A stretch of 64,000 bases of DNA, taken from Verrucomicrobiia bacterium. Its GTDB lineage: Bacteria > Verrucomicrobiota > Verrucomicrobiia > Limisphaerales > CAIMTB01. The stretch spans positions 186,001 to 250,000 of the forward strand of contig JAHCBA010000004.1 of assembly GCA_019634625.1 (NCBI GenBank), given 5' to 3'. The notes under the pieces are model-generated. The model worked only from the letters and a program-made list of their open reading frames with translations, made no database searches and was not told the origin of the DNA. A program made the position numbers and the translations under genes. Each line of letters starts with the position of its first letter. Position 1 is the first letter of the stretch. Shown in pieces: positions 3,694 to 30,020 of this stretch.

Positions 3694-4839
3694 ATGGACT
3701 TCTCCTGGTCTCCCGAACAACGCGAACTGCTCGATGCCGTCCAGCGCTTCGCCGCCCAGCACCTCCCCAGCGACCTCATCGCCGATGACCGCCATGACCG
3801 CTTCAACCAGGAGGGCTGGAAGAAGTGCGGCGAGTTCGGCATCCAGGGCCTCCCCGTACCCCCCGAGTACGGCGGCCTCGGCGCCGATCCCCTCACCACC
3901 GTCGGCGCCCTCGAACGTCTCGGCTACGCCTGCAAGGACAATGGCCTCGTCTTCTCCATCAATGCCCACCTCTGGACCGTCGTCATGCCCCTGGTGACCA
4001 CCGGCACCGAAGACCAGAAACGCCGCTACCTCCCCGGCCTCTCCAACGGTTCCCTCATCGGCGCCAATGCCATGAGCGAACCCAATTCGGGTTCCGATGC
4101 CTTCAGCCTCGGTACCACCGCCCGACGCGACGGCCCAAACTACATCCTCAACGGTGGCAAAATCTGGGTCACCAATGGCCCCGTCGCCGATCTCTTCGCC
4201 GTCTATGCCACCCTCGACAAATCCCGCGGCGCCCAAGGCGTCACCGGATTCCTCGTCGAAAAGGGCACCCCAGGCATGGAAATCGGTCGCCGCATCGAAA
4301 AAATGGGCCTCCGTACCTCCCCCATGTCCGAGGTCTTCTTCCAGGACTGCCCCGTCCCCGCCGAAAACCGCCTCGGCGACGAGTTCGGAGGCGCCCACCT
4401 CTTCACCCGCTCCATGACCTGGGAACGCGGCTGCATCCTCGCCAATGCCGTCGGCTCCATGCAGCGCCTCCTCGAACTCTCCATCCGCCACGCCCGCACC
4501 CGGAAGCAATCCGGTCAGCCCATCGGCAAATTCCAGCATGTCTCCGGCCGCATCGTGGACATGAAACTCCGCCTCGAAACCGCCCGCCACCTCCTCTACC
4601 ACGGCGCCTGGGTCCGCTCCCAGGGCAAGGCCGGCTTCCTCGAGGCCGCCCTCGCCAAACTCCACATCTCCGACTGCTGGGTGAAATCCTGCGAGGACGC
4701 CATCCAGATCCACGGCGGCTATGGCTATACCGTCGAGGCCGAAATCGAACGCGAACTCCGCGACGCCATCGGCAGCCGCCTCTACTCCGGCACCAGCGAA
4801 ATCCAGAAGAACCTCGTCGCCTCCCTCCTCGGCCTCTGA
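3694..4839 (+). CDS. acyl-CoA dehydrogenase-family flavoprotein, possibly a prolyl-carrier-protein dehydrogenase
   Basis: 381 residues, the normal length for this FAD family. Family blocks: ANAMSEPNSGSDAFS (residues about 125-138), KIWVTNGPVADLFAVYA, FLVEKGTPGMEIG, QSGQPIGKFQHVSGRIVDMK and the C-terminal LYSGTSEIQKN. The usual JK-loop catalytic glutamate (YEGT in MCAD) is serine here (S365). A glutamate is present in helix G (TWERGC, E244), the position used by isovaleryl-CoA dehydrogenase and, as I recall, by prolyl-PCP dehydrogenases such as PigA/RedW/PltE. Those enzymes also carry a WE(K/R)GC-like block and SGTxxIQK. EtfB, EtfA, an Fe-S oxidoreductase, an adenylation domain and a carrier protein follow, which supports a carrier-bound substrate. 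An ordinary fatty-acid or branched-chain role remains possible. ATG 3694 gives the family N-terminus (MDFSWSPEQRELL). Confidence 0.85.
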   Translation: MDFSWSPEQRELLDAVQRFAAQHLPSDLIADDRHDRFNQEGWKKCGEFGIQGLPVPPEYGGLGADPLTTVGALERLGYACKDNGLVFSINAHLWTVVMPLVTTGTEDQKRRYLPGLSNGSLIGANAMSEPNSGSDAFSLGTTARRDGPNYILNGGKIWVTNGPVADLFAVYATLDKSRGAQGVTGFLVEKGTPGMEIGRRIEKMGLRTSPMSEVFFQDCPVPAENRLGDEFGGAHLFTRSMTWERGCILANAVGSMQRLLELSIRHARTRKQSGQPIGKFQHVSGRIVDMKLRLETARHLLYHGAWVRSQGKAGFLEAALAKLHISDCWVKSCEDAIQIHGGYGYTVEAEIERELRDAIGSRLYSGTSEIQKNLVASLLGL

Positions 4840-4865
4840 TGTTCCAACCCCACCCCCATCCCTCC

Positions 4866-4888
4866 GGAGGGCCGAGCTCCGCGAGGCC
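4866..4888 (+). repeat. variant copy of the 23-bp intergenic repeat
   Basis: A divergent copy of the dispersed repeat whose core is GGACGAGCTCCGCGAGTCC; here the core reads GGCCGAGCTCCGCGAGGCC. It sits in the 86-base gap between the dehydrogenase and etfB. Confidence 0.55.
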
Positions 4889-4925
4889 GCCCGCCCCCTG
4901 ATCCCTCACCCCCCTCCCCTTCCCC

Positions 4926-5651
4926 ATGAAGATCCTCGTCCCCTTCAAACGCGTCCCCGACCCCGCCAGCGCCGGCGCCGCCCAATGGATCGTCAATTAC
5001 TTCGACGAAATCGCCGTCGAGGAGGCCCTCCGCATCCGCGAACGCGCCGAGGCCACCGAAATCGCTGCCGTCACCATCGCCCCCGCCGCCGCCGAGGAAC
5101 AACTCCGCACCGTCCTCGCCATGGGCGTGGATCGCGCCCTCCGCATCGATGATTCCCGCGACCTCGACCCCTCCACCGTCGCCCACCTCCTCGCCGCCGT
5201 CGTCCGCCGCGAACAACCCGACCTCGTCCTCATGGGCAAACAGGCCGTCGATGACGACGCCAGCCAGGTCGGCCCCATGCTCGCCGCCCATCTCGGCTGG
5301 CCCCAGGCAACCTTCGCTTCGAAGATCGAATTCCCCCCCGCCGCCGGCGAAGCGGTCTGCACCCGCGAAACCGACCGCGGCCTCGAAGTCATCGCCGTCC
5401 GCCTGCCCGCCGTCGTCACCACCGACCTCCGCCTCAACGAACCCCGCTACGTCTCCCTCCCAGGCCTCATGAAGGCCCGCCGCCGCCCGATCGATACCCT
5501 CGCCCTCGCGGACCTCGGCGTCGCCGCCGAACCCCGCACCACCGTACTCGATGTCCGCCCCACCGCCCGCCGCTCCGCCGGCATCCGCCTCGAATCCGTC
5601 GAGGACCTCCTCCAACGCCTCCGCGACCACGACCGCGTCCTTGATGCCTGA
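4926..5651 (+). CDS. etfB: electron transfer flavoprotein subunit beta
   Basis: 241 residues starting MKILVPFKRVPDPASAG, the standard EtfB N-terminus. EtfB binds AMP and forms a heterodimer with EtfA, whose FAD takes electrons from acyl-CoA dehydrogenase-type flavoproteins. Seen: DLVLMGKQAVDDDASQVGPM, the conserved AMP-loop region, and LPAVVTTDLRLNEPRY in the recognition-loop region. It sits directly between its likely electron donor (3694-4839) and etfA, whose start is 20 bases after this stop. Confidence 0.93.
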   Translation: MKILVPFKRVPDPASAGAAQWIVNYFDEIAVEEALRIRERAEATEIAAVTIAPAAAEEQLRTVLAMGVDRALRIDDSRDLDPSTVAHLLAAVVRREQPDLVLMGKQAVDDDASQVGPMLAAHLGWPQATFASKIEFPPAAGEAVCTRETDRGLEVIAVRLPAVVTTDLRLNEPRYVSLPGLMKARRRPIDTLALADLGVAAEPRTTVLDVRPTARRSAGIRLESVEDLLQRLRDHDRVLDA

Positions 5652-5670
5652 TCCCCTCCCCCGCCGCCCC

Positions 5671-6639
5671 ATGACCCGAAGCCTCATCCTCATCGAACAC
5701 GACGGACGCCAGCCCCGCGCCGCCTCCCTGCACGCGGTCTCCCTCGCCCGCGCCCTCGGCGGCGAATACGCCTTGCTGGTCCTCGGTTCCCAGATCACCG
5801 ACGTCGCCGCCGCCCTGCGTTCCTATGGCGCCTCGCGGATTCTCACCGCCGATCACCCCGCCCTCCAGGAACCCCTCGCCGATCGGTACGCCGCCGTGGT
5901 CGCCCAGGCCGCTTCCTCCTGGACCACCACCCACCTGCTCGGCACCACCTCCACCTTCTCCAAGGATGTCCTCCCCCGCGTCGCCGCCCTCCTCGACGCC
6001 CCCATGCTCACCGACGTCATGGCCTTCGAATCCCGCGACGACGGCCCGGTGTTCCATCGCCCCCTCAGCGCCGGCAGCCAGCGCGCCACCGTCCGCGTGA
6101 CCGGGGACCGCCTCGTCCTCACCGCCCGCGGCACCGCCTTCCCAATCCCAACCCCCGATCCCTCCGCCTCTCCCTCCCCCGTCGAACCCCTCCCGGTCGA
6201 TGCCGGTTCCCTTCCCTCCGGCACCCGGTTCGTCTCCCGCTCCCAACCCGCCTCCGGCCGCCCCGACCTCACCGAGGCCCGCGTCGTTGTCAGCGGCGGT
6301 CGGCCCCTCGGTGATGCCGCCGCCTTCGATCGCTTGATCGGCGGCCTCGCCGACGCCCTTGGCGGCGCGGTCGGTGCCACCCGCGGTGCCGTGGACGGCG
6401 GCATGGCCCCGAACGACTGGCAGGTCGGACAGACGGGCAAGGTCGTCGCCCCCGAACTCTATTTCGCCATCGGCATCTCCGGCGCCATCCAGCACGTCGC
6501 CGGCATGCAGGACTCCCGCGTCATCGTCGCCATCAACCGCGATCCCGAAGCCCCCATCTTCCAGGTGGCCACCTACGGCCTGGTCGGCGACCTCCACCAG
6601 ATCGTTCCCGACCTGCTCGCCCGCCTCGGCCCCCGTTAG
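5671..6639 (+). CDS. etfA: electron transfer flavoprotein subunit alpha
   Basis: 322 residues with the start at ATG 5671; an in-frame ATG at 5644 would overlap etfB and adds only proline/arginine-rich residues. The C-terminal FAD domain is clear: [10 protein letters not shown], then [55 protein letters not shown] and [16 protein letters not shown]. The protein accepts electrons from the upstream dehydrogenase and passes them to a quinone reductase. The next gene encodes a candidate partner, so the electron branch appears self-contained. Confidence 0.93.
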
Positions 6640-6699
6640 TCGCCCGCAGGCGGCCTCCCCCATTCAGATCGGTTCCCGTCGAGCCCCCAAACCCGCCCC

Positions 6700-8730
6700 A
6701 TGGATGCCTTCCTCGCCAACGCCGTACCGACCCGCGAGGTCTTCGGCAACATCTCGCCGTGGATGCGCCTCGCATTCTACGCCCTGATGCTGGCCAGCAT
6801 GGGCTTCCTTGCCTGGCGCGTCGCCTGGCGGGCCCGGCTGTGGTGGCAGGGACGCCCGGGCGGCTTCGAACGCGACTGGCGCGTCTGGATCCGCCGCCTC
6901 GCCGTCTATGCCGCCGCCCAGAAACGCGTCCATCGCAAATCCCTCGGGGCCGTCCTCCATATCCTCCTCTTCAGCGGCTTCGTCGTCCTCACCATCGGCA
7001 CCACCCTCCTCGCCATCGCCGATCAGGGCCCGGTCAACTTCCACCAGGGCACCTACTACCTGCTCTACGAGCTGACCATGGACGTCTTCGGCGTGGCGCT
7101 CTGCGTCGGCTGTCTCCTCGCCCTCTACCGTCGCTGGGCCATCCGCCCCGCCAGTCTCGGCCACCAGCGCAGCGATTGGCTCGTCCTCGCCATCCTCCTT
7201 GCCCTCGGCATCACCGGCTTCCTCCTCGAGGCCCTCCGTCTCCGCTACACCGAAGTCGAACCCGCCATCGCCCGCTGGTCCGTCATCGGCCATCTCATCG
7301 ATCTCACCCTCCTCCGCGGCCTCGACCTCGAAACCTCCCGCACCTGGCACCTCTGGATGTGGTGGATCCATACCTTGCTCGTCGCCGGCCTCTTCGTCGC
7401 CTGGCCCGTCACCCGCTTCCTCCACGTCCTCACCGGCCCCCTCAACCTCGCCCTCCGGCCCGAACGCCATCCCGGCGCCCTCGCCCCCATCTCCATCGAG
7501 GAGGTCGAGGCCAGCGGCCAGACCGGCGTCGCCCAGATCACCGATTTCAACCGCCAGCAACTCCTCAGCCTCGATGCCTGCATGGAATGCGGCCGCTGCG
7601 AGGATGCCTGCCCCGCCTGGGCCACCGGAAAACCCCTCTCCCCCAAGGCCGTCGTCGTGGATCTTCGCGCCGCCATGGCCGCCCCCAACGCCAGCCCGCT
7701 CCATGGCGGCGTCATCCGCCCCGATACCCTCTGGGCCTGCACCATGTGCCAGGCCTGCGTCCACGAATGCCCCGTCCTCATCGGCCACGTCGATCTGATC
7801 GGCGACCTCCGCCGCAACCTCGTCGGTGAAGGCCAGATCGCCGGGCCCCCGGCCAAAGCCCTCTCGGTCACCTGGCGCCAGTTCAATCCCTACGGCCGCC
7901 CCGAGTCCGATCGCATGGCCTGGGCCGCCGGCCTCTCCGTCCCCACCGTCGAATCCCACCCCAACGCCGACTACCTCCTCTGGATCGGCTGCGCCGCCGC
8001 CTTCGATCCCCGTTCCCAGAAAGTCGCCCGCGCCCTCGTCCAGCTCCTCCAGCGGGCCGGTGTCTCGTTCGCCGTCCTCGGCAAACAGGAACGCTGCACC
8101 GGGGATTCAGCCCGGCGCCTCGGCGACGAATTCCTCTTCCAGTTCCTCGCCCGCGGGAATGTCGAAACCCTGAACCGCCATCAGGTGAAGAAAATCATCA
8201 CCTCCTGCCCCCACTGCCTCAATACGCTCAAGAACGAATACCCCCAGTTCGAGGGCACCTACCACGTCCACCACCATTCCCAGCTCCTCGCCGAACTGCT
8301 CCAGTCCGGACGCCTCTCCCCGGGCGACACCCCATCCTCCGACCCCGTCACCCTCCACGACCCCTGCTACCTCGCCCGCGTCAACGGCGAAACCGAAGCC
8401 CAGCGGACCGTCCTCCAAGCCCCCTCCCAGCCGCTCCGGGAAATGCCCCGCTGCGGCTCCAAAACCTTCTGCTGCGGCGCCGGCGGCGGACGCATGTGGT
8501 TCGATGACCCCCCCGCCCAGCGCGTCTCCACCCTCCGCGCCGCCGAGGCCGCCGCCACCGGCGCCAAAACCCTCGCCACCGCCTGCCCCTTCTGCCTCAA
8601 CATGATGTCCGACGCCGTCGCCCGCGGCGGCCCCGCCGAAGGCATGGCCGTCCTCGATATCGCCGAAATCCTTCTCCAACGTCAGCCGCCCTCCCATGGA
8701 CTGCCTCCTCTCCCACCTGCTCACCCGTAG
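6700..8730 (+). CDS. membrane Fe-S oxidoreductase, putative ETF:quinone oxidoreductase
   Basis: 676 residues. N-terminal nitrate-reductase-gamma-like membrane part with several hydrophobic segments (about 22-45, 84-108, 120-142, 160-180, 215-240). Then a two-cluster ferredoxin domain with CMECGRCEDACP (about 294-305) and CTMCQACVHECP (about 347-358). Finally a pair of cysteine-rich CCG-type domains (ITSCPHCLNTLKNEYPQ, FCCGAGGGRMWF, ACPFCLNMMSDA) as in heterodisulfide-reductase-like proteins. Proteins of this build next to etfAB are proposed ETF:menaquinone oxidoreductases that deliver electrons to the membrane quinone pool. The stop lies 35 bases inside the next gene, so expression of the two is likely coupled. 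Role assigned from architecture and position. Confidence 0.88.
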   Translation: MDAFLANAVPTREVFGNISPWMRLAFYALMLASMGFLAWRVAWRARLWWQGRPGGFERDWRVWIRRLAVYAAAQKRVHRKSLGAVLHILLFSGFVVLTIGTTLLAIADQGPVNFHQGTYYLLYELTMDVFGVALCVGCLLALYRRWAIRPASLGHQRSDWLVLAILLALGITGFLLEALRLRYTEVEPAIARWSVIGHLIDLTLLRGLDLETSRTWHLWMWWIHTLLVAGLFVAWPVTRFLHVLTGPLNLALRPERHPGALAPISIEEVEASGQTGVAQITDFNRQQLLSLDACMECGRCEDACPAWATGKPLSPKAVVVDLRAAMAAPNASPLHGGVIRPDTLWACTMCQACVHECPVLIGHVDLIGDLRRNLVGEGQIAGPPAKALSVTWRQFNPYGRPESDRMAWAAGLSVPTVESHPNADYLLWIGCAAAFDPRSQKVARALVQLLQRAGVSFAVLGKQERCTGDSARRLGDEFLFQFLARGNVETLNRHQVKKIITSCPHCLNTLKNEYPQFEGTYHVHHHSQLLAELLQSGRLSPGDTPSSDPVTLHDPCYLARVNGETEAQRTVLQAPSQPLREMPRCGSKTFCCGAGGGRMWFDDPPAQRVSTLRAAEAAATGAKTLATACPFCLNMMSDAVARGGPAEGMAVLDIAEILLQRQPPSHGLPPLPPAHP

Positions 8731-10327
8731 CGCCGCCCGTCATCCCGATCGCGATGCCGTCCGCATCGACGGCCAGGGCCTCACCTACTCCGAACTCGAC
8801 CGCCTCACCAACCGCGTCGCCCGCGCCCTCCGCGACCGCGGCATCCAGCGCGGCGACCGCGTCGGCATCTACGTCCACAAATCCTTCGCCTCCGTCATCT
8901 CGGTCTTCGGCATCCTCAAGGCCGGAGCCGTCTATGTCCCCCTCGACCCCAACGCCCCCGCCCGCCGCCTCGCCTACATCGCCCGCGACTGCGGCCTCAA
9001 AGCCCTCCTCACCGCCCCTTCCAAACTCGCCGCCCTCCCCGACCTCGCCGCCGAAGGTGCCCCCACCCGGCTCGCCCTCCTCACCAGCCCGTCCGACCCC
9101 GCCGCCACAGTTGCCCCGCCCGACTGGGACGTCGTGTCCTGGGAGTCGCTCCAGTCCCTCGATGACGCGGCGGTCGAGGAGTACCCGGCCATCGAAACCG
9201 ATCTCGCCTACATCCTCTACACCTCGGGTTCCACCGGCGCCCCCAAGGGCGTCATGATCTCCCACCGCACGATCTTCACGTTCCTCAATTGGTGCCAGAC
9301 GACCTTCGCCATGACCCACGAGGACCGGGTCACCAGCCAGGCCCCCCTCCACTTCGACCTCTCCACCTTCGACCTCTACGCCACCCTCCAGGCCGGCGGC
9401 ACCATCATCCTCGTCGGCGAACACCTCGCCGCCCTGCCGGTCAAACTGGTCGCCCTCCTCCAGGACGAACGGGTCACCATCACCTACCTCGTCCCCTCCA
9501 TCCTCTCCCTCATGCTCAACTACGGCAGCATGGCCAAACACGACCTCTCCCGTCTCCGCTGCGTCCTCTTCGCCGGCGAGGTCTTCCCCATGAAGTACCT
9601 CCGCCGCCTCGTCCAGACCCTCCCCCACGCCGCCTTCTACAACCTCTACGGCCCCACCGAAACCAACGTCTGCACCTACTACCGCGTCGCCCCCGACGAC
9701 GTCGCCCCCGAACGCGGCGATGCCCCCGTCCCCATCGGGCGCGCCTGCGAAAATGTCGAGGTCTTCGCCCTCGATGACCACGGACACCGCATCGTCGAGC
9801 CCGGCATCGAAGGCGAACTCTGGGCCCGCGGCTCCTGCGTCGCCCAAGGCTACTGGGGCGACCCCGAAAAGACCGCCCGCTCCTTCGTCCAGAGCCCCCT
9901 CCAATCCCTCTACCCCGACCCCGCCTACCGCACCGGCGATATCGTCACCCTCGCCCCCGACCGCCAGAACTGGCTCTACGTCGGACGCCGCGATCACATG
10001 GTCAAGTGCCGCGGCTACCGCATCGAACTCGGCGAAATCGAAACCGCCCTCTACCGCCATGACCAGGTCAAGGAGGCCGCCGTCATCGCCATCCCCGACG
10101 ACCTCCTCGGCAACCGACTCCGCGCCTACGTGGTCCTCGCCGACGGCTCCACCCTCACCGGCAGGGAACTCGAATCCTTCTGTTCCACCCACGTGCCGAA
10201 ATACATGGTCCCCGAACGCATCGAGATCTGTGCCCAGCTCCCCAAGACCTCCACCGGCAAGGTGGATCGCACCGCCCTCAACGCCGTCGCCACCCAACGG
10301 CCTGCCGTTCCTCCAACCCGCCCCTGA
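8696..10327 (+). CDS. stand-alone amino-acid adenylation domain (NRPS A domain), proline-like pocket
   Basis: 543 residues, one A domain with no condensation or carrier domain. Core motifs: AYILYTSGSTGAPKGVMISH (171-190), NLYGPTE (316-322), YRTGDIV (411-417), VGRRDHMVKCRGYRIELGEIE (split across 429-449) and TSTGKVDR (518-525) with Lys522. It activates an acid with ATP and loads it on a carrier protein, probably the one encoded next. Aligning by eye to the PheA pocket gives D221, L222, F225, Y264, L291, A293, L317, V325, C326, K522. I recall the L-proline pocket of PltF/RedM-type enzymes as DLLYLALVCK, which differs at one place. Exosortase loci also carry a different AMP-ligase (TIGR03098), an alternative family. 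Start overlaps the upstream gene by 35 bases. Confidence 0.9.
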   Translation: MDCLLSHLLTRSAARHPDRDAVRIDGQGLTYSELDRLTNRVARALRDRGIQRGDRVGIYVHKSFASVISVFGILKAGAVYVPLDPNAPARRLAYIARDCGLKALLTAPSKLAALPDLAAEGAPTRLALLTSPSDPAATVAPPDWDVVSWESLQSLDDAAVEEYPAIETDLAYILYTSGSTGAPKGVMISHRTIFTFLNWCQTTFAMTHEDRVTSQAPLHFDLSTFDLYATLQAGGTIILVGEHLAALPVKLVALLQDERVTITYLVPSILSLMLNYGSMAKHDLSRLRCVLFAGEVFPMKYLRRLVQTLPHAAFYNLYGPTETNVCTYYRVAPDDVAPERGDAPVPIGRACENVEVFALDDHGHRIVEPGIEGELWARGSCVAQGYWGDPEKTARSFVQSPLQSLYPDPAYRTGDIVTLAPDRQNWLYVGRRDHMVKCRGYRIELGEIETALYRHDQVKEAAVIAIPDDLLGNRLRAYVVLADGSTLTGRELESFCSTHVPKYMVPERIEICAQLPKTSTGKVDRTALNAVATQRPAVPPTRP

Positions 10328-10413
10328 TCCCGGGGGGAATCGCGAATGACGAATCGAGCATCCCGAATCGTATCTCCCCCCGTGCATCCCGATTCCCGTA
10401 AACGTCCCTTCCC

Positions 10414-10659
10414 ATGAACATCCAAAGCGAAATCGAACAGTTCATCGTCCATGAGATCCTGACCGACGGACGCCCGTCCCTCGACCCCCAGGAACCCCTC
10501 ATGACCAACGGCACCCTCGACTCCCTCGGCACCCTGCGCCTCATCACTTTCCTCGAGGAACGCTTCGGTGTCCGCATCGGCGATGGCGAACTCGGCGAGG
10601 ACAACTTCGGCAACCTCGAAAACATCGCCCGCTTCGTCGCCTCCAAACAGTCCCAGTAA
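10414..10659 (+). CDS. acyl/peptidyl carrier protein
   Basis: 81 residues with the four-helix carrier-protein pattern. Ser37 in the GTLDSLGTL block is the expected phosphopantetheine attachment site. The second half ([14 protein letters not shown], then [13 protein letters not shown]) resembles the small discrete carriers that pair with stand-alone prolyl A domains. It follows the adenylation gene by 86 bases and is the only carrier protein in the window, so it is the likely acceptor of the activated acid and the likely substrate carrier for the flavoprotein at 3694-4839. A tandem repeat array follows its stop. Confidence 0.9.
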
Positions 10660-10700
10660 CCCGCCCCGCCGCCAGCCACCCTCTCCCCGGAGGAACCTCT

Positions 10701-10922
10701 TCCCGGAGGGACGAGCTCCGCGAGTCCACCCACCACTGCCCCCTCGTCCTTCTCCATTCAATCCACCCCGCCGCCGACCCCCTCTTCCCGGAGGGACGAG
10801 CTCCGCGAGTCCACCCACCACTGCCCCCTCATCCCTCTCCAATCCACCCACCCCGCCGCCGGTCCCCTGTTCCCGGAGGGACGAGCCCCGCGAGTCCGCC
10901 CAGCACTGCCCCTCATCCTTCA
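10701..10922 (+). repeat. three-unit tandem array, 85-bp period
   Basis: Units begin at 10701, 10786 and 10871, so the spacing is exactly 85 bases twice. Each unit opens with TCCCGGAGGGACGAG and carries the dispersed core GGACGAGCTCCGCGAGTCC (third unit has GAGCCCCGCGAG), followed by a CCACCCACCACTGCCCC-like stretch. The core can fold as an imperfect hairpin: GGAC pairs with GTCC, then two G-A mismatches, then GC/GC. The array fills the gap between the carrier-protein gene and the first acyltransferase. Confidence 0.85.
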
Positions 10923-10925
10923 CCC

Positions 10926-11609
10926 ATGCCTCCCGATCCCCTCCCCACCGAAGGTCATCGCTCCGCCCTCTGCGCCCGTCTCGTCCCCGCCCTCTACGGG
11001 ATGACCCGCAACGGCATCGTCCGCTCCTCCCTTAGAAGCCTCGTCCTTCGCGCCGAGCGCGGCGGCGCCTTCTCCCGGACCATCCGCGACCTCTTCCGCA
11101 CCTTCCACGGCGTGGACGTCGGCCTCTACACCGTCGGCCCCTGCCACGTCCCTCCCGGCAATCTTCTCCCCGGCACGACCGTCGGCCGCTACTGCTCGAT
11201 CTATTACACGGTTCGCGCCCTGTCCCACGATCGCCCTTGGAACTCCCGACTCCTCCACGACCTCTACGGCGACGAAGCCCTCGACGACTCCCCCGCCGCT
11301 CCCGGCGCCGGCACCCCCGCCGGTCTCCGCATCGGCAACGACGTCTTCATGGGGCACAACGTCATCATCCTCCCCTCCGTTCGCGAAGTGGGTGACGGCG
11401 CCGTCATCGGTGCCGGCTCCGTCGTCCAGTCCTGCGTCCCTCCCTACGCCATCGTCACCGGCAACCCCGCCCGCGTGGTCAAGTTCCGCTTCTCCAAACC
11501 CAGGATCGCGGAACTCCTGGAATCGAAATGGTGGAACAAAAGCCTCGCCGAACTCGGTCGCTCCATCGACGAGTTCCGCGTCCCCCTCGAAGGCGGCCCG
11601 CTCCGCTGA
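10926..11609 (+). CDS. left-handed beta-helix (hexapeptide) acyltransferase, copy 1
   Basis: 227 residues of the hexapeptide-repeat acyltransferase superfamily (CatB/VatD-like). A helical N-terminal third is followed by the beta-helix coils: [20 protein letters not shown], where the histidine of LSHD is a candidate catalytic residue. Next come [37 protein letters not shown] and the closing [15 protein letters not shown]. Such enzymes transfer acetyl or other acyl groups to sugars. The next gene is a clear paralogue with the same N-terminal block ([20 protein letters not shown] here). Placed after an A domain and carrier protein, one or both could take an acyl group from the carrier; that is inference. 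Confidence 0.88.
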
Positions 11610-11668
11610 GGCCCCGCGCTTGCCCCTTCCCGCCTCCCGCCTCCCTCCCAGCCCCTGCCCCCCTCCCC

Positions 11669-12373
11669 GTGAACGAAGGAAGGAAAACCCCCGTCTTCTC
11701 CAGCCTCGCCCTCCGGCTCTACCCGCGCCTGGGCGTCGAATCCATCCGCGGCGCCCTGCGCCAACTCGCTCTCACCCTCGAGGGTGGCCCCGCCCGTTCC
11801 CTCACCCTCCGCGAAATCTTCCGCCGCTTTCATCGCGTCGAGGTCGGCCTCCACACGGCCGGCCCCTGCCGCCTCCACCCCAAGGTCTTTCACGTCGGTA
11901 CCGCCTTCGGCCGCTACGTCTCCGTCGCCTCAACCGTCCGCACCTTCACCCGCAACCACACCATCTACACCAAGTCCACCAGCGGCTTCTTTGACAACCC
12001 CGCCGCCGGCATCGTCAAGTCGGACCTCGTGTCGTGGGGCCGCCTCGTCATCGGCCACGGCGCCTGGCTCGGTCACCAGGCCATCCTCCTCCCCCCCGCC
12101 GAACGGATCGGCGAAGGCGCCATCGTCACCGCCGGCTCCGTCGTCTATACCAACGTCCCCCCTTACGCCATCGTCAGCGGTTTCCCCGCCCGCGTGATCG
12201 GTTACCGCTACCCGAAACCCGTCATCGAGGAACTCCTCGCCTCCCGCTGGTGGGAACTTTCCCCCTCCAGACTCGCCGCCCAGGCCGATCGCTTCCGTAC
12301 CCTGCTCAGCACCCAACCCGACGCGCCAGCCCACCCGATCCCCGCACCCCCTTCCCATCCCTCCTCCCCATGA
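11669..12373 (+). CDS. left-handed beta-helix (hexapeptide) acyltransferase, copy 2
   Basis: 234 residues from a GTG start at 11669; the open frame upstream of it overlaps the previous gene and is not protein-like. It is a tandem paralogue of the preceding gene: FRRFHRVEVGLHTAGPCRLHP matches [21 protein letters not shown]. Next are GTAFGRYVSVASTVRTFTRN, then VIGHGAWLGHQAILLPPAER, GEGAIVTAGSVVYTNVPPY and AIVSGFPARVIGYRYPKP. The first copy has LSHDRP at the putative active-site coil; this one has FTRNHT, so substrate use may have diverged. The stop overlaps the methyltransferase start by four bases. Confidence 0.85.
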   Translation: MNEGRKTPVFSSLALRLYPRLGVESIRGALRQLALTLEGGPARSLTLREIFRRFHRVEVGLHTAGPCRLHPKVFHVGTAFGRYVSVASTVRTFTRNHTIYTKSTSGFFDNPAAGIVKSDLVSWGRLVIGHGAWLGHQAILLPPAERIGEGAIVTAGSVVYTNVPPYAIVSGFPARVIGYRYPKPVIEELLASRWWELSPSRLAAQADRFRTLLSTQPDAPAHPIPAPPSHPSSP

Positions 12374-13122
12374 TCAACGACGCCCACAACACCGCCGCGG
12401 CCATCTATTACAACCGCGACCGCCCCTCCATCGTCGCCCTCATCAAACCCGGCCCCCATGTCATCCTCGACCTCGGATGCGGCTCCGGGGCCGTCGGACG
12501 CAAACTCATGGAGACCGGCAAGGCCTCCGAAATGATCGGCGTCGAGATCTTCCCGACCGCCGCCGAAGAAGCCTCCCGGCATTACGCCAGGGTCCATTGC
12601 GGCGACATCGAGGAAATGTCCCTCCCCTACGGACAGCACTTCGACTACGTCCTCTGCGGCGACATCCTCGAACACCTCAAGAACCCCTACTCCGTCGTCG
12701 CCCGCATCCCCGGCTGGCTCAAGCACGACGGCCGCTTCATCTGCAGCGTCCCCAACGTCCGCCATTGGCGCGTCCTCCGCGATGTCATCGTTCGCGGCGA
12801 GTGGGAATACCGCGAGGCGGGCATCATGGACCGCACCCATCTCCGCTTCTTCACCCGCCGCTCCTGCTACCGCATGCTGGAGGAGGCCGGCTTCACCGTG
12901 GAACGGCACCGCATGCTCATCACCGGACGCCGCTACATCGCCCTCAACGCCGTGACCTTCGGACTCTTCCAGGAGTTCTTCGGCTCCCAGATCGTCGCCC
13001 TCGCCGCCAGGCGCGCACCTGCCCCTTCCCCTCAACTCCCGGCCCCCACCCCCGACCAGCCGTCTCCCTCAAACGCACCGGAATCCCCGTCCCAACCGGA
13101 ATCGAAAAGTTCCGCCGGATGA
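12370..13122 (+). CDS. class I SAM-dependent methyltransferase
   Basis: 250 residues. SAM-binding motif I is VILDLGCGSGAVGRKLM, followed by the acidic end of strand 2 (IGVEIFP), HCGDIEEM and FDYVLCGDILEHLKNPY. The layout matches methyltransferases of the Methyltransf_11/23 groups common in O-antigen and capsule clusters. The last 35 residues are proline/serine-rich and probably disordered. Start ATG overlaps the upstream stop (ATGA). It may methylate a sugar or acyl substituent made by its neighbours. Confidence 0.88.
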   Translation: MINDAHNTAAAIYYNRDRPSIVALIKPGPHVILDLGCGSGAVGRKLMETGKASEMIGVEIFPTAAEEASRHYARVHCGDIEEMSLPYGQHFDYVLCGDILEHLKNPYSVVARIPGWLKHDGRFICSVPNVRHWRVLRDVIVRGEWEYREAGIMDRTHLRFFTRRSCYRMLEEAGFTVERHRMLITGRRYIALNAVTFGLFQEFFGSQIVALAARRAPAPSPQLPAPTPDQPSPSNAPESPSQPESKSSAG

Positions 13123-13211: not shown

Positions 13212-14693
13212 ATGGGAATCAAACGCTCGGCCCTGAAAGGCTCCGCCGTCGTCGCCCTCGGCGAAGGCCTCGGCTTCGCCGCGTCCTTCATCCGCAACAT
13301 GATCCTCGCCCGGGCCCTCCCCAAGGCGGACTTCGGGATCGCGGCGACGTTCGCCATGGTGATCACCCTCCTCGAGGTCTCCGCCAAAATGGGCATCGCC
13401 CGTTTCCTCGTCCGGGACAAGGAGGGCAACGAACCCGAATTCCTCGCCGCCGCCCACTTCCTTCATGGCGTCGCCGCCCTCGCCAGTTGCGCCCTCATCG
13501 CCGCCCTCGCATGGCCCATCGCCCACCTCTTCGGCATCCGCGAGCACGCCACCGCCCTCCTGGCCCTCGCCCTCATCCCCCTCCTCCACGGCTTCGGGCA
13601 CCTCGATGTCCGCCGCTTCGAACGGACCATGCGCTTCGGACCCGCCACCTGGATCGAAGCCGGCCCCCAACTGGTCATCACCGCTCTCGCCTGGCCCGTC
13701 GCCGTCTGGCTCGGCGATTACCGTTCCGTCCTTCTTCTCCTCGTCCTCAAGGCCCTCCTTAGCTGGACCGGGTCCTTCCTCTTCGCCGAACGCCCCTACC
13801 GCTGGCTGTTCCACCGCGAATACGTCACCCGCATGCTCCGCTTCGGCTGGCCCCTCATCCTCAACGGCTTCCTCATGTTCGCCGTCATGCGTGGCGACCA
13901 GTTCGTCGTCGCCACCTTCTATCCCATGGAGGAACTCGCCGCCTTCGCCGCCGCCGCCTCGCTCGCCCTCGCCCCCATCCTCCTCTTCAGCCGCGTCTTC
14001 GCCTCGGTCATGCTTCCCGTCCTCGCCAAGGCCCAGGATGACCCCGCCGTCTTCGAACGCCGGTACCGCCTCATCCTCGCCTTCATGAGCGCCTTCTCCG
14101 CCGCCTACGCCATGGGCCTCATCGTCGCCGCCGAACCCCTGATGCAGTTCGCCTTCGGCTCCAAATACGCCGGCGCCGGACTCCTCCTCGCCTGGCTCGC
14201 CGCCGCCAATGCCCTCCGCAACGTCCGCCGCGCCACGGCCATCGCTGCCATCGCCAAGGGCGACTCCGTCAACGAACTCTATTCCAATCTCTCCGGCGGC
14301 GTCGCCCTCCTCCCCGCCCTCGCCATCGGTTTCCTTCGCGACCCCGTCTGGATGATCGCCGCTGTCGGGCTCCTCGGCGAATTCGTCGCCTGCTGGGTCG
14401 CCTTCCGCCGCCTCTCCCGCCGCGACGGCGTCCCCCTCGCCACCTCCCTTGTCCCGTCGGGTCTCGTCCTCCTCATCATTGCCGCCGCTGGCGCCCTTCA
14501 CCTTGCCCTCGAACACCAACCCTGGCCCATGCCCGTCATGCTCCTCCTCGGCATCGCCGCCGCCCTGACCGGTTCCGTCGCCGTCCTCCTGATCCTTCCC
14601 GCCTCCCGCCAGCAGATCCTCCTCGCCTGGCGCCGGGGACGCGCCCGCGGCTGGAAATCCCTCCTCTTCCCCCCAAAGCCCGCCGCCCCGTGA
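13212..14693 (+). CDS. polysaccharide flippase of the MOP/Wzx type
   Basis: 493 residues, almost entirely transmembrane, of the MATE/Wzx-like polysaccharide export superfamily. It starts MGIKRSALKGSAVVALGEG, typical of these proteins, and then has ILARALPKADFGIAATFAMV, the first paired helices. It contains about 12-14 hydrophobic segments, for example IALAWPIAHLFGI-like (here IAALAWPIAHLFGI) and LILNGFLMFAVMRGDQFVV. Wzx flippases move lipid-linked repeat units across the inner membrane. No Wzy polymerase or glycosyltransferase is visible in the window, so the rest of the assembly machinery must lie elsewhere. Confidence 0.87.
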   Translation: MGIKRSALKGSAVVALGEGLGFAASFIRNMILARALPKADFGIAATFAMVITLLEVSAKMGIARFLVRDKEGNEPEFLAAAHFLHGVAALASCALIAALAWPIAHLFGIREHATALLALALIPLLHGFGHLDVRRFERTMRFGPATWIEAGPQLVITALAWPVAVWLGDYRSVLLLLVLKALLSWTGSFLFAERPYRWLFHREYVTRMLRFGWPLILNGFLMFAVMRGDQFVVATFYPMEELAAFAAAASLALAPILLFSRVFASVMLPVLAKAQDDPAVFERRYRLILAFMSAFSAAYAMGLIVAAEPLMQFAFGSKYAGAGLLLAWLAAANALRNVRRATAIAAIAKGDSVNELYSNLSGGVALLPALAIGFLRDPVWMIAAVGLLGEFVACWVAFRRLSRRDGVPLATSLVPSGLVLLIIAAAGALHLALEHQPWPMPVMLLLGIAAALTGSVAVLLILPASRQQILLAWRRGRARGWKSLLFPPKPAAP

Positions 14694-15188: not shown

Positions 15189-16655
15189 ATGCGCCCCCTC
15201 CCCACTCTCGCGATTCTCTTCCTCAGCGCCCTCACTGCACCCGCCGCGCTCCCCCACGGCCCCGCCCCCACCACCCCCCAACGCTCCGTCTCCCAGCACG
15301 GCATCACCTGGACCTTCGATCGCGATGTTCCCGTCGGACGCTTCATCAACGGCGACTTCTACGTCGTTGGCCCCGTCACCGTCGTTGCCCTCGACCCCAG
15401 GACCCTCGTCGGCCCCGAGGTCCCCGAATCCGAACTCGGCACCCGCGAGAAAGCCCGCGTCCGAAATGCCACCTGGGTCCGGAACGGCTCGATGCGCAAT
15501 CCTCCTGCCCGACCCGAAGTCGCCTACGACAGCGGTGTCCGGAACTATTTCAAACCCGACCTCCTCGCCGTCCCTCCCATCCGTCTCCAGCCCGGCGATC
15601 GCCTCGTCTCCACCATCAGCTTCAAGGTCGGTGAAGAACCCAACTTCCCCTACCACGGCGGTCGCGGCTCCCGCGAACACCACGACAACAGCCCCATCCG
15701 CGTCGCCGCCGTCCTCACCTGCCTCGCCCAAGCCCAGCCTGCCGACGCCTTCCGCCCCTCCTACGGCGACTCAGAAGCGAGGATCTATCTCGGCCGCAAC
15801 CTGCGCCGCGACCTTCTTCCACGCCTGCCGCCCCCGCCGGAAACCCCCGACCTCGATGTCTGGCTCCGGGTCTTCGAGCGCCCCTGGATCAACACCTGCT
15901 TCTTTGGCTTCGATCAACCCATGGAGAACATGCCGCACTACGGCCAATGGGTCGGGCAGGCCCAGTCCATGGGTGGCCTCCTCCTCATGCTCGATCTCGA
16001 CCCCGCGAAAAAGGAGCAGCTCATGATCCGCATGGTCCAGGTCGGCATCGATTACTGGGGCCTCGTCCGCAACGGCCACCGCGGCTGGCCCGGCTGGGGA
16101 GGACACGGCAGCGGCCGGAAGTTTCCCATCGTCCTGGCCGGGCTCCTGCTCGGGGACCCCGAAATGGCCGCCCCCTCCCGCACCTTCCCCAAGGTCGAGT
16201 TCGGCGAGGATAACCAGACCCTCTACGGCGAAGGCTGGACCGGCGCCCGTGCCCTCTTCGCCGGCCACTCCGGCATCCAACGCGCCTCCGGCACCGCCGA
16301 ACGCCCCCACTGGGGTCCCTACGAGCATCTTCACCCCTCCCAATGGACCGCCCAACAGCGCCAAAGCGAAGCCTATCGCCGCGCCAATACCAGCAGTTCC
16401 TGGGTCGGACAGGCCCTCACCCTCCGTCTCCTCCGCGCGGAACAAGCCTGGGATCACCCCGCCTTCTTCGACTACGTGGACCGATGGATGACCGATCCCA
16501 ACGACCGCGATCACCGCCTCGAAATCATGAGGCATCACCCGGGGTTCAACCTCGATGACCGCGCCCGCCACACCCACCAGGGCAACGCCTGGGAACCCTT
16601 CGTCCGCTCCATGTGGGACCGCCACGCCTCACCTCCCCCCTACTCCCCCCGATGA
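15189..16655 (+). CDS. secreted protein of unknown function
   Basis: 488 residues with a signal peptide (MRPLPTLAILFLSALTAPAA). A ribosome binding site AGGA lies five bases before the ATG. I do not recognise a family. Visible: a beta-rich first part (GITWTFDRDVPVGRFINGDF, VVGPVTVVALDP), then a helical part rich in Trp, Gly and His (MENMPHYGQWVGQAQSMGG, GHRGWPGWGGHGSGRKFP) suggestive of an alpha/alpha-toroid fold as in some polysaccharide lyases. The C-terminal end has RHTHQGNAWEPFVRSMW. The stop overlaps the CapA-like gene by four bases, which ties it to the envelope locus. Confidence 0.8.
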   Translation: MRPLPTLAILFLSALTAPAALPHGPAPTTPQRSVSQHGITWTFDRDVPVGRFINGDFYVVGPVTVVALDPRTLVGPEVPESELGTREKARVRNATWVRNGSMRNPPARPEVAYDSGVRNYFKPDLLAVPPIRLQPGDRLVSTISFKVGEEPNFPYHGGRGSREHHDNSPIRVAAVLTCLAQAQPADAFRPSYGDSEARIYLGRNLRRDLLPRLPPPPETPDLDVWLRVFERPWINTCFFGFDQPMENMPHYGQWVGQAQSMGGLLLMLDLDPAKKEQLMIRMVQVGIDYWGLVRNGHRGWPGWGGHGSGRKFPIVLAGLLLGDPEMAAPSRTFPKVEFGEDNQTLYGEGWTGARALFAGHSGIQRASGTAERPHWGPYEHLHPSQWTAQQRQSEAYRRANTSSSWVGQALTLRLLRAEQAWDHPAFFDYVDRWMTDPNDRDHRLEIMRHHPGFNLDDRARHTHQGNAWEPFVRSMWDRHASPPPYSPR

Positions 16656-17785
16656 CCACCGTCCTGATCGCCGCTGATATCTGCCCCATCGAGGGCAACC
16701 TCCCCTTCTTCCTCCGCGCCGACGCCGACAGCCTCTTCCATGATCTCCTCCCCGAGTTCAAACAGGCCGACCTCGTCGTCGCCAACCTCGAATGCCCCCT
16801 CATCGAAGCCCCCTCCCCGATCCTCAAAACCGGCCCCACCTTCGGCGCCCCCCCCGCCTGCATCGAGGCCATCCGCGCCGGTCACATCGACACCCTCTGC
16901 CTCGCCAATAATCACATCCTCGACCACGGCGCCGCCGGCCTGAAAAGCACCCTCGAAGCCTGCGCCCGCGCCGGCATCCACACCGTCGGCGCCGGCGAAA
17001 ATCGTCAGGCCGCCCGCCGCATCCTGATCCGCCAGGCAGGCTCGAAACGCATCGGCCTCCTCGCCGTCGCCGAACACGAGTTCTCCATCGCCGGACGCGA
17101 CTCCTGGGGCGCCAATCCCATCGACCTCATCGACTTCGTCCGCAACGTCCGCGAGCACCGCGCCGACTTCGATTACCTCATCGTCCTCGTCCACGGCTCG
17201 GCCGAGTTCCATGCCCCCACCCCCCGCATCCGCGACACCTGCCGCTTCATGGTCGAAATGGGCGCCAACGCCGTCATCGTCCAGCACCCCCACATGCTCG
17301 GCGGACACGAACTCTACCAGGACGGCCACATTGTCTATGGCCAGGGCGCCCTCGTCATGGATGAAGCCCTCTACCGCCCCCTCAAATCCTTCCACCAGGG
17401 CGTCGTCGTCCGCCTCGCCATCCCCGACCAGGGCCCGTCCACCATGGACCTCCTCCCCTTCACCCAGTCCGACCCCGTCCCCGGCGCCCGTCGCATGCCC
17501 GGGGACCAGGCCCGCGCCTTCCTGGAAACCCTGGCCGCGCGCTCCGCCAACCTCGCCAATGATGCCCTTGTCGAAGCCCAGTGGGTCGAGTTCTGCGAAA
17601 AACGCCGCCACGGCTATATCAGCTCCTTCCTCGGCCATGGCGGCATCCTCCGACGCCTCAACCGCAAAGGCTGGCTCGAACGCTTCCTCTACGGCCCCCG
17701 CCGCCTCGCCGGCGCCCGCAACCTGGTCTCCTGCGAAACCCATCGCGAAGCCCTCCAAACCCTCTTCGACCGCCGCCTCGTCTGA
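16652..17785 (+). CDS. CapA/YwtB-family metallophosphatase-fold protein
   Basis: 377 residues of the CapA family, first known from poly-gamma-glutamate capsule synthesis and common in exopolysaccharide clusters. Metal-site blocks: VLIAADICPIEGN, ADLVVANLECPLIE, CLANNHILDHGAAGLKSTLE, YLIVLVHGSAEFHAPTP and AVIVQHPHMLGGHELYQDG. The normal order of this fold is preserved and no signal peptide is evident, so it may act in the cytoplasm or be tethered by partners. The start overlaps the preceding stop (ATGA). Confidence 0.88.
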   Translation: MTTVLIAADICPIEGNLPFFLRADADSLFHDLLPEFKQADLVVANLECPLIEAPSPILKTGPTFGAPPACIEAIRAGHIDTLCLANNHILDHGAAGLKSTLEACARAGIHTVGAGENRQAARRILIRQAGSKRIGLLAVAEHEFSIAGRDSWGANPIDLIDFVRNVREHRADFDYLIVLVHGSAEFHAPTPRIRDTCRFMVEMGANAVIVQHPHMLGGHELYQDGHIVYGQGALVMDEALYRPLKSFHQGVVVRLAIPDQGPSTMDLLPFTQSDPVPGARRMPGDQARAFLETLAARSANLANDALVEAQWVEFCEKRRHGYISSFLGHGGILRRLNRKGWLERFLYGPRRLAGARNLVSCETHREALQTLFDRRLV

Positions 17786-17791
17786 TCCCCC

Positions 17792-18691
17792 ATGAAAGGC
17801 ATCCTCCTCGCCGGTGGCGCCGGCTCCCGCCTCTACCCGCTCACCCTCGTCGCCAGCAAACAACTCCAGCCGGTGTACGACAAACCCATGGTGTACTACC
17901 CGCTCACCACCCTCATCGACGGCGGCATCCGCGACATCTGCCTCATCTCCACTCCCGCCGACCTCCCCCGCTTTCAGCAACTCCTCGGCAATGGCTCCCG
18001 TCTCGGCCTCTCCATCGAGTACCGCGAACAACCCCGCCCCGAAGGCATCGCCCAGGCCTTCCTCATCGCCGCCTCCTTCGTCGGCAACGACCCCGTCGCC
18101 CTCATCCTCGGCGATAACATCTTCTACGGCGGCGACACCTTCCAACGTGCCTTCGCCGAATTCCGCGACGGCGCCACGATCTTCGGGTACCACGTCCACG
18201 ATCCCCAACGCTACGGCGTCGTCGAATTCGATCCCCACGGCCGCGCCATCTCCATCGAGGAAAAACCCCGTCACCCCCGCAGCAGCTACGCCGTCCCCGG
18301 CCTCTACCTCTACGACAACGAGGTGCTCGCCATCGCCCGCGCCCTCCGCCCCAGCGCCCGCGGCGAACTCGAAATCACCGACGTCAACCTCGCCTATCTC
18401 CATCGCCAACGCCTGCGCGTGCATCGCCTCGCCCGCGGCTTCGCCTGGCTCGATGCCGGCACCAGCACCAGCCTCCACGAAGCCAGCGCCTACGTGCAAA
18501 CCATCGAACGCCGCACCGGCATCAAAATCGGTTGCCCCGAGGAAGCCGCCTTCCGCCGCGGCTTCCTCCCCGAACCCGCCCTCGCCTCCCTGCTCGAACA
18601 CCTCCCCCTCTGCGAATACCGCACCTACCTCGAAGGCCTCCTCTCCGAGGCCCGCCGCGAACCCTCACCCGGCCACACCCAAAGCCCCTAG
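17792..18691 (+). CDS. rfbA: glucose-1-phosphate thymidylyltransferase
   Basis: 299 residues. MKGILLAGGAGSRLYPLTL is the nucleotide-binding loop, followed by SKQLQPVYDKPMVYYPLTTL, both diagnostic for RmlA. ALILGDNIFYGG and GVVEFDPHGRAISIEEKP are also family-typical. It makes dTDP-glucose from glucose-1-phosphate and dTTP, the first step of dTDP-rhamnose and related sugars. Genes for the reductase and dehydratase follow; an rfbC epimerase gene is not in the window. Confidence 0.95.
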   Translation: MKGILLAGGAGSRLYPLTLVASKQLQPVYDKPMVYYPLTTLIDGGIRDICLISTPADLPRFQQLLGNGSRLGLSIEYREQPRPEGIAQAFLIAASFVGNDPVALILGDNIFYGGDTFQRAFAEFRDGATIFGYHVHDPQRYGVVEFDPHGRAISIEEKPRHPRSSYAVPGLYLYDNEVLAIARALRPSARGELEITDVNLAYLHRQRLRVHRLARGFAWLDAGTSTSLHEASAYVQTIERRTGIKIGCPEEAAFRRGFLPEPALASLLEHLPLCEYRTYLEGLLSEARREPSPGHTQSP

Positions 18692-18778
18692 TCGAACCCC
18701 TCCCCAGACCCGGAAGGCCGGACTCCGGAAGCCCACCCTTCCCTCGCACCACCTTCGTCCCCCAAATTCCACCTTCGC

Positions 18779-19648: not shown

Positions 19649-19707
19649 TCCCCCATCGGATCGCCCGGCGGCCCAGACTCCACGAGGCCACACCTTCCCA
19701 TACCCTC

Positions 19708-20760: not shown

Positions 20761-20814
20761 CTCTACGACCCGCCGCATCCCGGCCCCCACTCCCTTTCCC
20801 AAGCAACCATCCCC

Positions 20815-22104: not shown

Positions 22105-22137
22105 CCCACCCCCGCCCACCACCCCCACCCCGCCCCC

Positions 22138-23847: not shown

Positions 23848-23859
23848 GCCACCCCCTCC

Positions 23860-23886
23860 GTCCGATCCGTCCGATCCGCCCGATCC
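23860..23886 (+). repeat. 9-bp minisatellite, three units
   Basis: GTCCGATCC, GTCCGATCC, GCCCGATCC in tandem just after the DUF218 gene. The unit fits GTCNSATCN, shared with arrays at 39223-39243 and 41854-41898. Confidence 0.75.
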
Positions 23887-23952
23887 GCCACCTCCCTACA
23901 CCGCGCTTGGCTCCCGCCCCGCGTTGTCGCTAACGTCCCCCATCGATCTCCC

Positions 23953-25515: not shown

Positions 25516-25628
25516 CCCCCCTCCCTCCCGCGCCGCCTCGAAAGGTCGCCTAGGGAATCGGCTTAAGCCACCGGAACCCTCTGCCGATATCGGTCTCGGG
25601 CCACGTCGCCCCCCTACCGCGACCCTCC

Positions 25629-26681: not shown

Positions 26682-26720
26682 TCGCACCACCCACTTCCCC
26701 CCGAACGCCGCCCACTTGCC

Positions 26721-29975: not shown

Positions 29976-30020
29976 GTCCTTCCAAACACGGCCCCCAATC
30001 CCACCCTTCCGCGCCCCCTC

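Follow-up and report, generated by a model that had tools for sequence, protein, structure and literature searches.

Carrier-bound oxidation of proline is known from antibiotics, pigments, and a cyanotoxin. In the modules that make pyrrole groups, such as PigA-PigG-PigI of prodigiosin, PltE-PltL-PltF of pyoluteorin, and CloN3-N5-N4 of clorobiocin, an adenylation domain (A domain) for L-proline is found with a carrier protein and a flavin dehydrogenase, and in clorobiocin the pyrrole acyl group is placed on a sugar. The same three activities are predicted in a verrucomicrobial stretch of 64,000 nucleotides (contig JAHCBA010000004.1, positions 186,001 to 250,000; hereafter the window, to which coordinates refer unless a locus is named). 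They lie within six same-strand genes at 3694–10659 that encode a flavoprotein, the electron transfer flavoprotein (ETF) subunits EtfB and EtfA, a membrane Fe-S protein, an A domain, and a carrier, followed by two hexapeptide proteins (Table 1). In contrast with the pyrrole modules, the flavoprotein scores under the PigA and RedW cut-offs, and an envelope polysaccharide takes the place of the antibiotic or pigment as the proposed acceptor. It is rather probable that the operon makes an oxidized prolyl thioester and hands it to the polysaccharide of the surrounding locus.

The anatoxin module of cyanobacteria, in which electrons from AnaB go to O2, also has the three activities as discrete proteins (AnaB, AnaC, and AnaD), with an A-domain code identical to that of the window. 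The available part of PMC6053186 describes AnaB as making 1-pyrroline-5-carboxyl-ACP (ACP, acyl carrier protein), which passes to polyketide synthases, and cites a title in which AnaB is termed an oxidase. Where the anatoxin module has polyketide synthases, the window has genes for ETF, polysaccharide synthesis, and a protein like EMO, the ETF:(methyl)menaquinone oxidoreductase. In Syntrophus, EMO is described as a diheme/Fe-S membrane protein through which electrons from ETF reach methylmenaquinone (PMC8805022, available part). The window protein has matching domains by Pfam, a likeness of domains rather than a direct sequence comparison, and whereas the Syntrophus protein serves acyl-CoA dehydrogenases (ACADs), the sole ACAD-family protein found here is the putative prolyl dehydrogenase.

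The Dlt system of D-alanylation (DltA, DltC, DltB, and DltD) resembles the operon in using an A domain and a discrete carrier for an envelope polymer, and other loci of the family discussed here add a fused multi-transmembrane and SGNH protein. The window differs in its proline code and oxidation step, and no homologue of this membrane-SGNH protein was found in its genome (G000; 6.74 Mb, 97% complete) at E ≤ 1e-8, a search that was not aimed at other membrane-bound O-acyltransferases (MBOAT) or other membrane acyltransferases. In the exosortase-A ligase, decarboxylase, and hydrolases (TIGR03098-TIGR03101), too, an adenylating ligase belongs to a polysaccharide locus with an exosortase. The window A domain has TIGR03098 as its second-best model (362.4 bits, below the cut-off of 592.35), and no decarboxylase of this type was found among the window proteins scanned. 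One Chthoniobacterales locus (L100:1426-4517) encodes a further carrier system, distinct and exosortase-A-like, with a ligase near TIGR03098 (505.5 bits, cut-off 592), a pyridoxal-phosphate decarboxylase like LysA/TIGR03099, and a carrier. The available part of the PEP-CTERM/exosortase paper PMC1569441 has no mention of ligase, decarboxylase, acyl carrier, or electron transfer. In the titles and abstract beginnings of the open-access literature, nothing was found that links pyrrole-2-carboxyl or prolyl carrier chemistry to bacterial exopolysaccharide, O-antigen, or capsular polysaccharide. The parts are known, and no description was found of their use together with a polysaccharide and a respiratory branch of ETF; this is known carrier chemistry that appears to have been rewired toward respiration and an envelope polymer.

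Flavoprotein, A domain, and carrier

Judged by profiles, trees, and an active-site residue, the flavoprotein is a member of the prolyl-carrier dehydrogenase (PDH) family of AnaB, PigA, and RedW, apart from the ACADs. PigA and RedW are its two best NCBIfam models, followed by acryloyl-CoA reductase (299.1 bits). The PigA and RedW cut-offs define equivalogs, and since the window PDH is below both it is not filed as either; the AnaB of Cuspidothrix, which fails both as well, scores lower on each (397.9 and 355.0). In the Methylocystis and Thioclava clusters, the PigA-type proteins exceed the PigA cut-off (659.5 and 529.4), and the ordinary ACAD tested (L023) has acryloyl-CoA reductase as its top model, RedW at 224.0, and no PigA match at E ≤ 1e-60. 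Among solved structures, the best match is the prolyl-ACP dehydrogenase 4irn (463 bits), presumably AnaB, followed by 6cxt (342), the L-prolyl-carrier dehydrogenase 5zw0 (307), which we take to be PigA, and 6af6 (304); the first ACAD is 5ol2 (282), with others below. The catalytic Glu (position 244 of 5zw0; Ala in 6af6) is kept in the motif SMTWERGC and present in all nine sequences checked.

Two PDH trees were made, one of 49 rows including three PDB entries, whose transcribed sequences contain at least four single-letter errors, and one of 46 rows without them. In the smaller tree, 35 prolyl-family rows split from 11 ordinary ACADs (100/100), and the larger tree gives the same split with 38 rows against 11; the window PDH falls with the AnaB/PigA-type rows. 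It joins eight Chthoniobacterales-type rows (100/98), and a Microvirga/Krumholzibacteria set of three is sister to these nine, the 12 rows together having support of 100/99 (values from the 46-row tree; both groupings recur in the other). The 4irn entry and Cuspidothrix AnaB group at 100/100 in the 49-row tree. As AnaB is next of kin to the set of 12 in the smaller tree (95/89) and groups with L114 in the larger (93/76), its place is unsure. The window protein would very probably oxidize a carrier-bound prolyl group.

The A domain had been read as having a proline-like pocket, and its code agrees with this: the ten letters are identical to those of AnaC (L014) and fit the consensus of stand-alone L-proline A domains, L(L/F)YLALVC, given in the available part of PMC3874040. 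The L-proline–carrier ligase 6o6e matches across the whole domain (295 bits); synthetase chains with several A domains total up to 460 bits by summing, their single domains shown having 142 and 186. In a 41-row tree, the window A domain groups with those of L012 (Chloroflexi) and L013 (Krumholzibacteria), both proline-coded and linked to the flippase Wzx (100/98). Neither of the placements that the sequence-only reading had named as refuting, the flavoprotein with ordinary ACADs and the A domain in a non-proline clade, was obtained. AnaC is in the next set (82/95), and eight rows of modular nonribosomal peptide synthetases (NRPS) stand apart (99/92). The A domains of Chthoniobacterales do not group with that of the window, and the 23 proline-coded rows overall are not one clade. 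Because the kin of the PDH are ETF-linked and verrucomicrobial and the kin of the A domain are polysaccharide-linked loci elsewhere, the operon looks composite. The serine of the carrier is supported by alignment with seven other carriers. The profile matches of the flavoprotein, ETF, Fe-S protein, and A domain are all far beyond chance, and that of the carrier is modest. From its homology, the A domain would almost certainly activate L-proline and load it onto the carrier.

Proposed electron line and co-occurrence

The window's genome has a single protein with the ACAD middle domain PF02770 (E ≤ 1e-5) and a single EtfB (E ≤ 1e-8), both in this operon, so that ETF and the EMO-like protein have no other client there from the ACAD family, which is what the search covered (other ETF users, such as sarcosine and dimethylglycine dehydrogenases, being outside its scope). 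The domains of the EMO type are found next to etfBA: a NarI-like membrane region, two 4Fe-4S motifs (residues 294 and 347), and CCG domains (CCG at 591), with five transmembrane-like segments. Because of this gene content and the lack of another ACAD-family client, an ETF/EMO route is proposed for the PDH, and we consider it highly likely that these proteins are its electron acceptor. In two related genomes, a 62-residue gene (MSDPVQYLTDEQGERTAVLLPI...) lies between EtfA and the EMO-like gene (L098:2666-2854 and L099:9204-9392).

Co-occurrence was analyzed in 147 genomes of a related order, that of genome G388 (PDH at E ≤ 1e-90, A domain at E ≤ 1e-100, at most nine candidates scored per genome). 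The PDH is present in eight genomes and the A domain in six, all of them among the eight, mostly unlinked. The plain hypergeometric value is 2e-9, which is not a probability of independence because the genomes are related. Of the two PDH genomes that lack a complete A domain, G389 has part of one, truncated where the contig stops (L008; 52% over 107 residues), and G528 is a genome of 2.5 Mb. In G388, the A domain sits in a second cassette with its own PDH (L096). EtfB is found at 62–66% identity in all eight PDH genomes, in one as a 106-residue piece at a contig end, and eight further genomes have an EtfB at 27–55%. Outside this set, two other groups were sampled by means of the PigA and RedW models; 1 of 143 and 12 of 149 genomes had a match at E ≤ 1e-100, in no case above cut-off. 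No PDH relative was found in viral contigs.

Where the A domain is on a separate contig (L101, L159 to L161), a FAD halogenase-like gene is nearby, and in L010 two halogenase-like genes near the A domain match PF04820, one of them matching halogenase chains that include CmlS and PltA. In several Chthoniobacterales, a halogenase-like gene and a carrier occur together with two small proteins that form a conserved pair (174 and 154–163 residues, with starts MPVQH and MSYALKKGTTSKILLVYA) at L005:17794-20315, L008:12441-14943, and L161:350-2860.

Polysaccharide setting and related loci

The six adjacent genes described in the sequence-only reading were confirmed, and overlaps of EtfB with EtfA, of the Fe-S protein with the A domain, and of HexB with the methyltransferase give the pattern expected in an operon. 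Both hexapeptide proteins and the flippase that it placed after the carrier are present, but a methyltransferase between them had been missed and the flippase lies beyond the segment described. The exosortase-associated polysaccharide locus stands as proposed, since the exosortase, PrsT, and VPDSG-CTERM proteins are above their cut-offs; with the exosortase (TIGR04178) and the C-terminal signal protein (PF18205) it is an XrtC-like locus. The ten proteins in the 20 kb upstream include two GT2 glycosyltransferases, Wzy_C, RmlC, a polysaccharide deacetylase, and FemAB. A 488-residue protein at 15189–16655 has no Pfam match (E ≤ 0.01). Three large proteins upstream of the operon (1823–3568 in the window and L043:12860-17775) have pectate-lyase-like beta-helix starts, with a profile basis for the one in the window.

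Table 1. Features of the operon and the genes that follow it
Feature	Coordinates	Strand	Basis
Prolyl-carrier dehydrogenase (PDH), AnaB/PigA/RedW family	3694..4839	+	PigA model 430.6 bits (cut-off 500), RedW 406.5 (cut-off 650); trees; Glu at 244
EtfB	4926..5651	+	PF01012 137 bits
EtfA	5644..6639, exact start uncertain	+	PF01012 117 bits, PF00766 105.5 bits
EMO-like membrane Fe-S protein	6700..8730	+	PF02665 37.3, Fer4_9 40, PF02754 102.8 bits (2 stretches)
Stand-alone A domain, L-proline code DLFYLALVCK	8696..10327	+	TIGR01733 392 bits
Discrete carrier protein, Ser in LDSLG	10414..10659	+	PF00550 23.8 bits, cut-off 20.8
Hexapeptide acyltransferase A (HexA), candidate transferase	10926..11609	+	Vat-type model 83.2 bits, cut-off 300
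Hexapeptide acyltransferase B (HexB), HexA paralogue	11669..12373	+	TIGR03308 92.1 bits, cut-off 201.65
S-adenosylmethionine methyltransferase-like protein, overlaps HexB	12370..13122	+	PF13489 72.3 bits
Wzx-type flippase	13212..14693	+	PF13440 164.7 bits
Polysaccharide genes: PGA_cap protein, RmlA, RmlD, RmlB-like, UDP-sugar dehydrogenase, epimerase	16652..23145	+	Profiles; RmlB-like by eye
RmlB-like gene	19708..20760	+	Read by eye from sequence
DUF218 protein, BBP2-like porin, exosortase, PrsT, VPDSG-CTERM protein	23167..31096	+	Profiles
BBP2-like porin		+	23.6 bits, just under cut-off 23.7
Exosortase	ends at 26681	+	TIGR04178 63.7 bits (cut-off 23); XrtC model 211.8, below cut-off 300
PrsT tetratricopeptide repeat protein	26721..29975	+	353 bits, cut-off 312
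VPDSG-CTERM protein	30422..31096	+	PF18205 27.8 bits, cut-off 25

A search with the PDH gave 38 loci, 19 at 45–71% identity and 19 at 30–36%. Among the closer ones, nine are of the Chthoniobacterales type (L004-L010, L015, and L019), one is of the anatoxin type (L014), one is a fragment (L022), and five belong to an NRPS-linked set (L016-L018, L020, and L021, L017 being assigned from its tree position). The link to polysaccharide genes proposed from the window recurs in other phyla, with other candidate transferases. In Microvirga zambiensis WSM3693 (L011), a proline-coded cassette is beside a GT2, two group-1 glycosyltransferases, and Wzz, and a plasmid of Microvirga sp. VF16 (L108) has the same layout, assigned by likeness. 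A Spartobacteria cassette (L096), also proline-coded, is beside Wzx (271.5 bits) and a glycosyltransferase. The proline-coded Krumholzibacteria locus L013 has Wzx and a hexapeptide protein adjoining the carrier gene, and a Chloroflexi metagenome-assembled genome (L012/L107) has a Wzx just above cut-off (29.6 of 28.2) and an LpxL-like acyltransferase (PF03279). On an Acidobacteria contig (L103), a proline-coded A domain is accompanied by the end of a PDH and by two proteins that resemble exosortase-A hydrolases 1 and 2 with scores under the cut-offs (75.6 and 79.1 bits).

The Spartobacteria locus has two FAD halogenase-like proteins immediately preceding its carrier, A domain, and PDH (L096:5653-11822; CmlS model at 149.6 and 136.3 bits, far below the cut-off of 900), and a halogenated pyrrole on a polysaccharide is possible there. 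Genes like those of a GT4 glycosyltransferase, a DegT aminotransferase, and an NDP-sugar epimerase, recognized by sequence reading, lie near a proline A domain in L019:3-5001 and L106:2-10969, and might point to an acylated amino sugar.

A separate set (L016, L018, L020, L042, and L111) combines a PDH-family flavoprotein and a carrier with a modular NRPS and an A domain of another code, and was not counted. The codes are DIFYLGVQCK, DILYLGVQCK, DIMYLGVQCK, DMFYMGVQCK, and DIFFIGSMCK; the hosts are Bacteroidota, one genome of the window's phylum, and Rhodobacterales, and there is a HupE/UreJ-like protein (annotated in L111, elsewhere by likeness). The Rhodobacterales locus, which lies beside yjb-type and export genes, was considered as polysaccharide-linked and dropped, because its code, the last of these, is not proline-like and it groups with the NRPS-linked set.

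HexA and HexB score 26.5 and 17.3 in Pfam, short of the cut-off of 27, and the NCBIfam acyltransferase models that they match are all below their cut-offs. HexA matches the solved ApmA (79 bits) and then chloramphenicol and streptogramin A acetyltransferases, and HexB is 40% identical to HexA over 220 residues. That they are the transferase is tentative. In other loci, a candidate is the membrane-SGNH protein, which has a membrane half and an SGNH half (854–876 residues in L011, L108, and L096). Its C-terminal 466 residues are also at the contig end of a second Krumholzibacteria cassette (L104, a 10 kb contig where no other polysaccharide genes were recognized). The gene adjoins that of the carrier in L011, L108, and L104 and is three genes away in L096, so that the protein is near the cassette in four loci of three phyla, an arrangement reminiscent of DltB-DltD. 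It was found in 3 of 16 genomes: G388 (with a further weak match, 28%), G392, and G394 (two pieces on two contigs). Since all 16 were chosen for a PDH relative, this count says little and the gene positions more. Among 72,556 unselected plasmids, the sole full-length match is the Microvirga VF16 plasmid that carries the cassette, and in seven Ensifer plasmid records the match is confined to a portion of the SGNH half, with identity of about 25%. Pfam picks up the SGNH half only, under cut-off (29.1 and 30.0 of 32.9), and NCBIfam matches are weak, so that the MBOAT reading of the membrane half depends on MBOAT-like motifs seen by eye. A profile of four relatives against solved structures gave one meaningless match (E 0.49), and a single-sequence AlphaFold2 model of the L011 protein (mean pLDDT 42.8) was too poor for a structure search.

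Competing readings and proposed pathway

Several observations weigh against the delivery of an oxidized prolyl group to the polysaccharide. Polysaccharide-linked cassettes are few, three of the 19 closer loci (L011, L012, and L013), with no matched control for genes lying near a flippase, and their PDHs, possibly one clade in the 49-row tree (50/84), are not one in the 46-row tree. Within the window's phylum, PDH relatives occur in 3 of 387 genomes (E ≤ 1e-80), namely the window's own, L042 (50%, NRPS-linked), and one at 38%. The neighborhood, whose conservation the sequence-only reading had proposed as a check, is conserved in part: EtfB comes after the PDH in all 12 loci of the close clade, but for five of them (L007, L009, L097, L098, and L099) no A domain accompanies the PDH-ETF-EMO unit within the sequence retrieved, and the full order of ETF, A domain, carrier, Hex, and Wzx was observed nowhere but in the window. 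The EMO assignment is based on the order of domains. In five relatives with the unit, there are 4 to 6 PF02770 matches (G388 5, G390 4, G466 6, G500 4, and G508 5) and one EtfB each, so that an exclusive client holds for the window's genome only and ETF may serve other clients in the relatives. Between pyrrole and dehydroproline, nothing in the data shows pyrrole; HexA and HexB resemble acetyl-CoA enzymes and could simply O-acetylate; and members of the family are found in small-molecule clusters (anatoxin-type L014, prodigiosin-type L112 and L113, and the NRPS-linked L110 of Brasilonema).

The anatoxin-type and prodigiosin-type clusters, in which the same enzymes occur, would fit an operon that makes a small diffusible pyrrole or dehydroproline compound and is merely located in a polysaccharide locus, as would the Chthoniobacterales A domains near FAD halogenase-like genes and, in L106, near a gene for a β-ketoacyl synthase (KAS) III. 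However, no polyketide synthase, KAS, condensation domain, or modular NRPS is among the window proteins scanned (561–31096) and the ten upstream, Wzx or glycosyltransferases recur beside proline-coded cassettes elsewhere, and the nearest kin of the A domain are the Wzx-linked L012 and L013; a diffusible product is thus unlikely. An ordinary operon of fatty or amino acid breakdown, with dehydrogenase, ETF, and quinone reductase beside an unrelated A domain, would agree with the dehydrogenase-ETF-EMO chain known for acyl-CoA oxidation (PMC8805022, available part) and with the five loci without A domain. The PDH family, the trees, the proline code, the catalytic Glu, the lack of a second PF02770 protein in the genome, and the restriction of the A domain to PDH genomes (6 of 6) make it very improbable. 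Pyrrole formation is the commoner outcome in the PDH family, and FAD halogenases, to whose likes relatives are linked, often act on carrier-bound pyrroles; both count against an oxidation by two electrons only, as by AnaB, leaving a 1-pyrroline-5-carboxyl (dehydroprolyl) group. This outcome remains a real contender, though not the one we would choose, as no solved relative is nearer than 4irn, that group is the product described for AnaB (PMC6053186, available part), and AnaB is next of kin to the window's set in one tree, if elsewhere in the larger one. As for HexA and HexB, it is quite conceivable that they are ordinary O-acetyltransferases and that another enzyme passes on the oxidized prolyl group: their best matches are acetyltransferases (Vat, CatB, and ApmA), and the neighbor in other loci is a membrane-SGNH or LpxL-like protein. 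Against this, both genes are directly behind that of the carrier, as the L013 hexapeptide protein adjoins its own, and the G000 search described above gave no membrane-SGNH homologue.

The interpretation offered by the sequence-only reading is supported, and the oxidation state of the product, the transferase, and the acceptor are what we infer. In the pathway that we propose, the A domain would use ATP to activate L-proline and load it onto the discrete carrier, a step strongly supported by homology. The PDH would then oxidize the prolyl-S-carrier, somewhat more likely by four electrons to pyrrole-2-carboxyl-S-carrier than by two to the dehydroprolyl form, a pyrrole product being slightly favored. 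Its electrons would pass to EtfAB, the EMO-like protein, and quinone, instead of O2. On the cytoplasmic side, HexA, HexB, or both would transfer the acyl group from the carrier to a hydroxyl on a sugar of a lipid-linked unit. This unit may be modified by the methyltransferase, and Wzx would flip it to join the exopolysaccharide, which is probably the final acceptor. In the other phyla, the last step may take place outside the cell, by the fused membrane-SGNH protein that recalls DltB-DltD.

Taken more widely, at least four phyla may have an undescribed kind of envelope polysaccharide whose acyl groups, pyrrole-2-carboxyl or dehydroprolyl, are made on a carrier, with the oxidation coupled in one lineage to ETF and quinone and the group perhaps halogenated in L096; we regard this as evenly balanced between right and wrong. 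If true, it would add a new, possibly aromatic acyl group to those of bacterial polysaccharides, and it would give a branch of ETF a non-catabolic job, with a modification of the envelope draining into the quinone pool.

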